A stretch of 64,000 nt of DNA from Desulfomonile tiedjei DSM 6799 (lineage in GTDB: Bacteria > Desulfobacterota > Desulfomonilia > Desulfomonilales > Desulfomonilaceae), in NCBI RefSeq assembly GCF_000266945.1, contig NC_018025.1, forward strand, positions 2,790,001 through 2,854,000, given 5' to 3'. The stretch's first letter is position 1. Each line of letters opens with the position of its first letter. Positions 5,235 through 8,982 of the stretch are shown one piece after another. The translations under genes were made by a program, and so were the position numbers. The notes below the pieces were generated by a model. It searched no databases and was not told the origin of the DNA. It saw only the letters and a program-made list of their open reading frames with translations.

Positions 5235-5444
5235 AGCATAGGCGCTAACTTACCGTGTTTTTGGTCGTTTGTTCCGGAGGAACAACTGACAATAGGCCGG
5301 CGATTCATCGCCGGTTAAGGAAAAATCTAATGATTTTCGAGTCCCGGAGGGACGGCTGATACACAAATTCCCGGTAATGAATTACCGGGCTATTTTCTTT
5401 AGTCCCTGCGGGACAAGGAATTGCAGAAAAGTTAGCGCCTATGC
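5235..5444. repeat. Repeat family A, copy 1: 210-bp element with 16-bp terminal inverted repeats
   Basis: The ends are perfect inverted repeats: GCATAGGCGCTAACTT at 5235-5250 and its complement at 5429-5444. Between them lie five short hairpins in a row: 5270-5282 (GTTCC/GGAAC), 5297-5314 (CCGGCGAT/ATCGCCGG), 5341-5353 (GTCCC/GGGAC), 5370-5389 (CCCGGTAAT/ATTACCGGG) and 5402-5414 (GTCCC/GGGAC). Related copies are at 9800-10012 (opposite orientation) and 57247-57669. There is no coding potential. It resembles a MITE or large REP-type element. The right end overlaps the stop codon of the adjacent minus-strand gene. Confidence 0.9.
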
Positions 5445-6045: not shown

Positions 6046-7107
6046 TCATGGCAATTTAGTCCCGCACTCCTGACAAAAGCGATCCGCTGCTGCGGCTGCC
6101 TTGCCGCACTGAGGACATGATTTCTGTTGTGGCTTGCCACATTCAGGACAAAACTTGGCATCAGGTGTAACAGGTTTTCCGCATTCGCTGCAAAACCGAT
6201 TGCCTGTACCTGGAGCCGAACTTGGAGCTTGCGACTGTTGCTGATTCTGAGCAACAGAACCTGCCATCTGGTTAGCCATTTGCTGGCCCATGGCAATCCC
6301 TGCTCCCATACCGACGAAATCACCCGCTCCACCTGACTTTGCCGCTTCAGGTATCGCCTGAGCAGTCTGAAATTGCGTCAGCCGATTGAGATCGCCGGCT
6401 ATACCCATTTGGGAGCGAGTATCGAGCATCTTCTCAACTTCAGGCGGCAAAGAGATGTTTTCGATGACGAATCGCGACAAAGAAATACCGTACTTCAGAA
6501 ACTCCGGATCCATTGACGCTCTAGCCTTTTCTCCCATACTGCGGTAATTGGACGCGAGATCCAGAGCAGCCGTATTGGAAGTCCCCAGTAGTTCGGTGAA
6601 ATTCGAGACGAGCAAACTTCGCAACTGACCCTGTATTTCGTCTGTTGTGAAATTTCCGTCCGTGCCGACGATTTCTCGAATCAGCAATTCCGGGTCGGTA
6701 ACACGAATTCCATACGTACCGAAGGCTCGAAGCCGTACGACTCCGAAATCGGGATCCCGCAGCATTACCGGATTCTGAGTGCCCCATTTGAGATCGAGGA
6801 AATTCCGTGTACTGACAAAATACACCTCTGCTTTGAAGGGAGATTCGAAACCGTGCCGCCACGATCTGAGGGTCGTCATAATCGGCATGTTCTGTGTCGT
6901 GAGACTGTACATACCGGGCGCAAAAATATCTGCTATTCTTCCCTCATTCACGAATACCGCAGTCTGGCCTTCTCGCACCGTAAGCTTGGCTCCCATTTTG
7001 ATCTCGTTGTCTTTATCCGGGAATCTCCAGACCAGGGTGTCCCCTGTATCGTCGAGCCATGCTATTACCTCTATGAGTTCGCCTTTGATGAAATCTAAAA
7101 TGCCCAT
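6046..7107 (-). CDS. SPFH-domain protein with two C-terminal zinc ribbons (YdjI-like)
   Basis: A 353-residue protein with an N-terminal SPFH/virion-core-like domain (about residues 20-270; EIKMGAKLTVREGQTAVFVNEGR is characteristic), then a Gly/Met/Gln-rich linker (about 270-300) and two zinc ribbons, CSECGKPVTPDAKFCPEC and CPQC...CQEC, at the extreme C-terminus. Bacillus YdjI and similar proteins have this architecture and are linked to membrane stress and PspA-like systems (family knowledge). There is no signal peptide or membrane span, so it is probably cytoplasmic and recruited to the membrane. It sits 22 bp upstream of the cyclodeaminase-like gene on the same strand, so co-transcription is possible although no functional link is obvious. 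Confidence 0.85.
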   Translation of the reverse strand: MGILDFIKGELIEVIAWLDDTGDTLVWRFPDKDNEIKMGAKLTVREGQTAVFVNEGRIADIFAPGMYSLTTQNMPIMTTLRSWRHGFESPFKAEVYFVSTRNFLDLKWGTQNPVMLRDPDFGVVRLRAFGTYGIRVTDPELLIREIVGTDGNFTTDEIQGQLRSLLVSNFTELLGTSNTAALDLASNYRSMGEKARASMDPEFLKYGISLSRFVIENISLPPEVEKMLDTRSQMGIAGDLNRLTQFQTAQAIPEAAKSGGAGDFVGMGAGIAMGQQMANQMAGSVAQNQQQSQAPSSAPGTGNRFCSECGKPVTPDAKFCPECGKPQQKSCPQCGKAAAAADRFCQECGTKLP

Positions 7108-7515: not shown

Positions 7516-8898
7516 TTATTCTTCGATAGTGTATTTCTTGGGATCTTCTTTGTCGAAATCCACTTTGCATCTAAGATACTTACCATTCATTCCGGCTTTC
7601 TTGAGCACATTGTAGGCCATTTCTGCTCTCGCTCCGGTACCGCAATAGATATACACCGGTTTATCCTTGGGAAGTTCCCCCAAACGTTGTTCCAGTTCAT
7701 CGAGCGGGATATTGATTGAACTCTCAATTGCACCGGCTTTGGCTTCGGCTGCAGCTCGCACATCGAGGATCACGGCTTTCTTCTGGTTGTCTCCGATTGC
7801 TTCCTTGAATAGTGCCAGTTCCACTTCTCCGGGCATGAGCTTACGAACGTACTTTATGGTGGACTCCGCAGGGCCCTTTGCCACCTGTTTACCGGCTTTT
7901 TGCCACGCATCGAAGCCTCCGGCCAGGATGCTCGTCTGCTTGTATCCCAGGTCGGAAATGGCTTTGTACGCGTTCTGTGCCGAAGCTATGCTTCCGTCTT
8001 GATTGTAAAGTATGATGGCCGCGCTTTTGTACTTCGGAAGCTGACTCTCCAAAGTTTCGATTCCCGCTTCCGGAACCGCGACCGCTTTGGGGATATGACC
8101 TTGTTCGATCTGGGATTTGGGGCGCAGATCGAGAAGTATGTACGACGCGTCATTCTTGTCGTAATTCTCTATTGCCGCAACATTCGATACAACAGGGTGA
8201 CCTGCCTTTTTCCATGCGGGAAGTCCAGCATGAAATACCTTTACATTCTTGAATCCGAGCTTTTCCGCTTTCCTAGCGGCTAATGGGCTAAGAACTCAGG
8301 TGTATCCCGCACAGTAGTAGATTTGCAGGGTCTCTTTATCTTTCAGTAATTCATTGGCGAGCTTATCGAATGCAGAGAACGGCATGGAAACGGCCGTGGG
8401 TATATGACCTTCAGCATACATGTTTGGGGGCCGACTGTCTAAAAGGAGGTACTTTCCCTTTTCAGGTCCCATAGCTACCAGCTTTGCTATGTCGTCCACT
8501 TCCGCAAGCTGTTCTTTCGGGACCTCAATCCCTTTCTTTACTTCAACTTGTGTAGCTACGGTTTTTCCGTCTTTTATCGTGTACTTGATCCGCACGGATT
8601 CTTGCTTCGGAATTTCTTTGAAACTCGGAGCATTCTTGAGCACCGTAGCATCGTTAAAGTGGATGATCTCCATATCCTTGTTGATTTGAAGCTGAATGGT
8701 GTTTGCCTTGCTCGAGACATCGTAGATCTTGCCAGCGAACAGGTTGGGCGTCTTTGGGTAATCCGCATGGCAATTGATGCAACTGGCGTCGGCCTTTGAG
8801 GGGAGCTTGTCATCTTGAGCCGGCGCTGTGAGGGGGTAAGCCGCGCCGATCGCAAGAATTGCGCTCACGAGCACGGATGTGAGCACTATCCGCCACAT
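7516..8898 (-). CDS. Secreted triple-rhodanese protein with CxxCH motif and in-frame TGA (candidate selenoprotein)
   Basis: One reading frame of 460 codons, interrupted only by TGA at 8296-8298 (codon 201). The ATG at 8898 is chosen because GGAAAGGAG precedes it and it begins a good signal peptide (MWRIVLTSVL...). After the signal peptide come a single haem-c-type motif CINCH (Cys40-His44) and three rhodanese-like domains (about 135-235, 245-345 and 350-455). In domain 1 the active loop reads YYCAGYT-TGA-VLSPLAA; relatives as I recall them have Cys at the TGA position, so selenocysteine is the simple reading. Just after the TGA in the mRNA, CCGCT-AGGAA-AGCGG can form a bacterial SECIS-like hairpin about 17 nt downstream. 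Domain 3 keeps a catalytic Cys (YIYCGTGARA); domain 2 lacks one. The likely role is periplasmic sulfur or selenium transfer. The alternative is a genuine nonsense mutation. Confidence 0.8.
8258..8298 (-). promoter_or_regulatory. Candidate UGA (Sec) codon and SECIS-like hairpin
   Basis: On the minus strand the TGA at 8298-8296 is followed by 16 nt and then CCGCT, the loop AGGAA, and AGCGG. The neighbouring AGC and GCT could extend the stem through an internal loop. The distance and the G-containing apical loop match the loose bacterial SECIS pattern. The frame stays open for 259 further codons with rhodanese homology, which argues against a true stop. Confidence 0.55.
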
Positions 8899-8982
8899 GG
8901 GTACACTCCTTTCCTTCTTGCTTTGAGAAAATATTTGCCCCAAAGGGATATATCGCAATCAGACAATGGGGCTTCGCCTTGG

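Follow-up and report, generated by a model that had tools for sequence, protein, structure and literature searches.

We report a gene of Desulfomonile tiedjei encoding what we judge, with a probability of roughly 80%, to be a genuine selenoprotein that is exported and carries three rhodanese domains as well as a single haem-c motif; selenocysteine (Sec) may serve in it to make a sulfur-transfer loop reductive. The gene lies on the minus strand of the window, by which we mean the whole stretch of 64,000 nucleotides that was analysed. Its codon 201 is UGA, which almost certainly specifies Sec: a bSECIS hairpin downstream directs the decoding, and the canonical SelA/B/C/D machinery carries it out. 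Standard gene callers would label such a gene a truncated protein or a pseudogene; Sec read-through turns the apparent fragment into a conserved protein of 460 residues.

The reading frame and its TGA codon

The gene, its putative ribosome-binding site and the codon in question are placed as follows.

7516..8898, minus strand: selenoprotein gene, 460 codons and TAA, with TGA at codon 201 for Sec
8906..8912, minus strand: Shine-Dalgarno-like AAAGGAG, 7 nt upstream of the ATG
8296..8298, minus strand: TGA codon 201, decoded as selenocysteine

The frame runs from the ATG at 8898..8896 through the TGA at 8298..8296 to the TAA at 7518..7516. As the preliminary description had stated, it is open on both sides of a single internal TGA, by our count for 200 codons before and 259 after, and the loop surrounding that codon reads YYCAGYT-U-VLSPLAA, letter for letter as given there. 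A search of the genomes of 60 relatives yielded ten further full-length homologues, all of the same family, so that the family comprises 11 members with the present gene included; in ten of them the aligned frames were checked, and these hold no further stop. The TGA and both of its flanking frames are present again in relatives with just 52-63% identity, and purifying selection acts alike on either side of the codon, with a pN/pS of 0.30 upstream and 0.34 downstream. By this recurrence, taken together with pN/pS, the TGA-containing frame is not due to chance.

The preliminary description had also asked whether close relatives carry Cys or TGA at codon 201, and had held that homologues with any other residue there would count against Sec. 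TGA is found in 9 of the 11 family members and TGT in the other 2, and no third residue appears among 64 wider homologues, which divide into 32 with TGA and 32 with TGT or TGC. On a tree of 63 rows, from which the Sec column was masked, parsimony requires nine changes between Sec and Cys, at least six of which are forced by well-supported branches. With Sec and Cys versions occurring amongst close relatives, nature offers an experiment on the reason for using selenium.

Signals and machinery for selenocysteine

Downstream of the TGA lies the element that is expected to direct its decoding.

8265..8279, minus strand: bSECIS-type hairpin CCGCU-AGGAA-AGCGG, with G at loop position 2 in each of 26 Sec forms

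The claim of a hairpin at a SECIS-like distance is borne out: CCGCT-AGGAA-AGCGG occupies 8279..8265, starting 16 nt past the TGA, and its apical loop starts at 21 nt. On its own the hairpin in the window is modestly better than shuffled sequences (z -1.9, with 8 of 200 shuffles as good) and Rfam, applied at its gathering thresholds, reported no SECIS; it is the comparison across genomes that is convincing. In every one of the 32 TGA forms the stem measures 5 bp or more and the loop begins at +21 or +22, whereas a stem that long, of any kind, is seen in 13 of the 32 Cys forms. Across 26 distinct Sec forms, 97.7% of the cells are paired, two base pairs are changed on both sides, and the covariation score beats 500 of 500 shuffles as well as every slid version. 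The bSECIS search recommended in the preliminary description gives a hairpin that the Sec forms conserve, with covarying pairs, and that the close Cys forms have lost, the stem being broken in both same-family Cys homologues, where GCCGCAAGAAAAGCCG and GCCGCAAAAAAGGCGA replace GCCGCCAGGAAGGCGG. Folding energy alone separates the Sec and Cys forms weakly (p = 0.008), because the stretch with the hairpin also encodes conserved amino acids and stems can persist in Cys genes of high GC content; stem position and covariation are the better tests.

Also recommended was a search for selA, selB, selC and selD, all of which are in the D. tiedjei genome; with this, each computational check put forward in the preliminary description favours Sec. 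The selC gene has the anticodon UCA and scores 69.5 bits, and the protein matches reach 599 bits for selA, 404 bits for selB and 367 bits for selD, the last of which has an internal TGA of its own. In the wider sample, selB is present in 40 of the 41 genomes that carry the triple-rhodanese family, the exception being a bin that is 76% complete.

Domain architecture and the rhodanese loops

From the N-terminus onwards, the encoded protein has the following parts.

8818..8898, minus strand: likely signal peptide, about residues 1-27, with n-region, hydrophobic core and A-x-A, assigned by eye
8767..8781, minus strand: CINCH (C40-H44), a haem-c-type motif; CXXCH kept in 11 of 11 family homologues
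8524..8751, minus strand: small beta domain, about residues 50-125, from the AlphaFold2 model
8185..8502, minus strand: rhodanese domain 1, with the loop C196-A-G-Y-T-U201
8311..8313, minus strand: codon 196, the Cys at the catalytic position of domain 1
7885..8181, minus strand: rhodanese domain 2, without a catalytic Cys
7576..7827, minus strand: rhodanese domain 3, with the canonical loop C419-G-T-G-A-R

The signal-peptide pattern at the N-terminus, as judged by eye, suggests that the selenoprotein is likely exported, and the N-termini are hydrophobic in all 11 family homologues. Possession of a CXXCH in an exported protein, one criterion for a c-type cytochrome, can be recognised in CINCH at residues 40-44, with export here predicted by eye. 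The CXXCH is missing from some other Sec-containing relatives (L100-L102, L106), and the Sec chemistry therefore cannot depend on a haem. Three homologues belonging to one family with small genomes of 1.8 Mb (L092, L094 and L096) have C-x4-C-H in place of CXXCH.

That the protein contains three rhodanese stretches, as first described, is confirmed by Pfam PF00581, at 156 bits against a cut-off of 22.2; the small beta domain at about residues 50-125 has no Pfam match. The AlphaFold2 model, which was made from an alignment of 19 sequences and has a mean pLDDT of 87, gives both Cys-bearing sites as strand-loop-helix: in domain 1 a strand at 191-195, a loop from C196 and a helix from 203, and in domain 3 a strand at 415-418, a loop from C419 and a helix from 423. 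The best 50 matches of a whole-chain fold search are exclusively of the rhodanese type, with a TM-score of about 0.2 for the multi-domain chain, and the N-terminal domain found no match in this search.

The position of Sec within the first loop is not the one originally proposed. Sec had been thought to take the place of the catalytic Cys; in fact C196 is retained and Sec comes sixth and last in the six-residue loop, beside the catalytic Cys and not replacing it. The counterpart of Sec201 in domain 3 is an Arg (C419-G-T-G-A-R424), and the loop of domain 2 (YNQDGS) is without Cys, which leaves at most two active rhodanese sites. Invariant in 19 diverse homologues are C196, G198, Sec/Cys201 and S204, along with C419-x-T-G, and the C-x-T-G-x-R loop of domain 3 is kept by almost all homologues.

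Some variation in the loops is seen further afield. Two shorter triple-rhodanese proteins, from Desulfobacterales and an Olavius symbiont (L054 4991-6139 and L057 1038-2240), have the C-x-G-x-x-U loop twice, in domain 1 and again in domain 2, each time with a TGA codon. In two other homologues (L099 and L105) the first loop is shortened, to YCVGGCLSP and YDIGGCLSP respectively, with a Cys spacing that differs from C-x4-C, and each of these genomes carries a second copy with TGA. A remote triple-rhodanese homologue (L161 968-10562), with neither Cys nor Sec in loop 1, directly follows two very large multihaem cytochromes, of 16 and 13 CXXCH motifs.

Proposed chemistry and comparison with known systems

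It is plausible, although we would put it at somewhat below even odds, that Cys196 and Sec201 form a periplasmic redox pair that accepts sulfane sulfur (or selenium) and reductively releases it, as we infer from the loops and from the company that the gene keeps in relatives. C419 of domain 3 and C196 of domain 1 would take the sulfane sulfur (or selenium) as a Cys-persulfide, from thiosulfate, polysulfide or persulfides, and Sec201, at the end of its loop, would attack the persulfide with release of HS- (or HSe-). The Cys196-Sec201 selenenyl-sulfide bond left behind would then be reduced by a periplasmic donor, which might be a partner of the DsbD kind, TsoB for instance, or else a c-type haem. 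Attack by Sec and subsequent re-reduction would make a reductive loop of a sulfur-transfer loop, and the TsoB of the same genome, in which a UAGLTU rhodanese is fused to a DsbD-type electron relay, is a precedent for the supply of electrons to this loop. Should the mechanism be true, selenium chemistry would have a part in the sulfur or selenium metabolism of the periplasm. The triple-rhodanese family occurs in many sulfur-cycling anaerobes.

The selenoprotein gene is apparently alone in the window, its neighbours being an SPFH gene and a tRNA-Leu, and the neighbourhood evidence comes from relatives, chiefly from the Cys forms. Two features of the window are recorded here.

6046-7107, minus strand: gene for an SPFH/Band 7 protein with C-terminal zinc ribbons, downstream and co-directional
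5370-5415, plus strand: Acido-Lenti-1 RNA (an Rfam sRNA family), above the gathering score

An SPFH gene also lies downstream of the selenoprotein gene in two relatives (L119 and L120). In genomes with Geobacter-like cytochromes, tentatively assigned with a Geobacter PpcA cytochrome probe, the Cys form adjoins a PhsA-like molybdopterin enzyme, to which the thiosulfate reductase PhsA model is the closest (552 bits, below its cut-off of 694); the same loci encode membrane subunits of the NrfD type and often also a protein with DUF3373. One Cys homologue adjoins extM of the selenite/tellurite operon, and a shorter Cys relative, from Desulfosarcina, adjoins an octaheme cytochrome of the tetrathionate reductase family.

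These neighbours bear on two other roles for a protein in which Sec is correctly assigned. The first, which we consider possible but rather unlikely, is the reduction of selenite, tellurite or other oxyanions, as proposed for the ext cluster of Geobacter. Loss of ExtI impairs selenite/tellurite reduction by G. sulfurreducens (PMC5877670), and ExtH (GSU2940) of this periplasmic/outer-membrane redox cluster is an exported, rhodanese-like protein of a similar size, 49 kDa (PMC5877670, PMC6148476); furthermore, extM adjoins the one Cys homologue and DUF3373 proteins are found near several. However, there are no ext or DUF3373 genes near the selenoprotein gene in the window, the extIJKL neighbours that accompany extH being likewise absent from beside it, and ExtH, compared by description alone, differs in being a lipoprotein, with no Sec reported for it there. 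A DUF3373 search of the D. tiedjei genome gave no match, nor did it give one in any control.

The second role, which is less probable again, would give Cys196 and Sec201 a general thiol/selenol oxidoreductase function in the periplasm, or one in peroxide defence, without sulfur transfer. A Cys/Sec pair within one loop does resemble known selenoprotein redox motifs, and selenoproteins are mostly thought to be redox enzymes (PMC9312934), but such a role sits poorly with the near-universal retention of the canonical rhodanese loop in domain 3 and with neighbour genes in relatives that encode sulfur-respiration enzymes.

Readings of the UGA as anything other than Sec fare far worse. A system known from deltaproteobacteria, in which a selC*-type tRNA-Cys works with SelB*, would translate the UGA as Cys. 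This reading draws on the D. tiedjei genome having another selC-like tRNA, with another selB-like gene after it, and on the UCA anticodons of some such tRNAs in Desulfobacterales (PMC7609411). We reject it as very improbable, since the selC*-like tRNA here has the anticodon GCA, for Cys codons, and the tRNA with UCA is the canonical tRNA-Sec. The GCA-bearing, tRNA-Sec-like gene and the selB-like gene 130 bp further on lie at C1:3562734-3564838 (L002, L011), and the two fit a selC*/selB* tRNA-Cys system (PMC7609411). The face-value reading of an internal TGA, in which the protein is truncated and the codon is a genuine stop, a sequencing error or the lesion of a pseudogene, can be dismissed on the recurrence of the codon, always with the hairpin, and on the equal selection to either side of it. 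Translation as Trp was likewise rejected.

With Sec as the preferred reading, we turn to how far the protein differs from those already described. Amongst solved structures the best match, in both sequence and fold, is 1yt8, a multi-domain rhodanese (thiosulfate sulfurtransferase) of Pseudomonas aeruginosa, which differs in having no Sec and another arrangement of domains (whole-chain TM-score of about 0.2). Reviews list five rhodanese selenoprotein forms, UxxS, UxxG, CxU, UxxG and UxxxxU, the first of which (UxxS, PF00581) is cited as WP_010941598.1 (PMC13188914, PMC9312934). LYCAU (NF041203), the CxU form, resembles the present protein in having a rhodanese domain with the catalytic Cys retained and a Sec in the loop, but it is a single domain with Sec at loop position 3; against this model our protein, with the loop C-A-G-Y-T-U, scores 66.3 for a cut-off of 115. 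TsoB (NF045694), of which D. tiedjei has a copy, comes closer, in that Sec occupies loop position 6 (UAGLTU in TsoB and CAGYTU here). It differs in having Sec at both ends of the loop (UxxxxU), in its single rhodanese domain, and in a membrane part of the DsbD type that comes with thioredoxin; our protein, with C at position 1 and no membrane part, scores 82.2 against a cut-off of 805. The other family members tested also fall below the cut-offs of the NCBIfam models for the CxU and UxxxxU forms, and the triple-rhodanese family is without an NCBIfam model of its own. Elsewhere in the D. tiedjei genome (L129 8023-10800), three likely selenoproteins stand in a row, with the motifs of tsoA (LULATC), tsoB (UAGLTU) and tsoC (NEPNGKPU); next to them are a TauE-like gene and a regulator of the ArsR type.

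Of the original claim of a new selenoprotein, the presence of Sec stands and the novelty was overstated, given that TsoB has Sec at the same position and that form 1 may be the same family. It is doubtful, though conceivable, that we are dealing with an undescribed family, in the Desulfobacterota and Nitrospirota, of exported CXXCH and triple-rhodanese proteins, periplasmic sulfane-sulfur reductases with a Cys/Sec redox pair (C-x-G-x-x-U) in the first loop and repeated switching between Sec and Cys. The protein has the UxxS motif, as U201-V-L-S204, and the same full architecture, with U-A-L-S, occurs in genomes from the order of the Geobacter-like relatives; WP_010941598.1 presumably falls in the G. 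sulfurreducens accession series. Matched in this way by its motif description, the listed form 1 is probably the triple-rhodanese family reported here.
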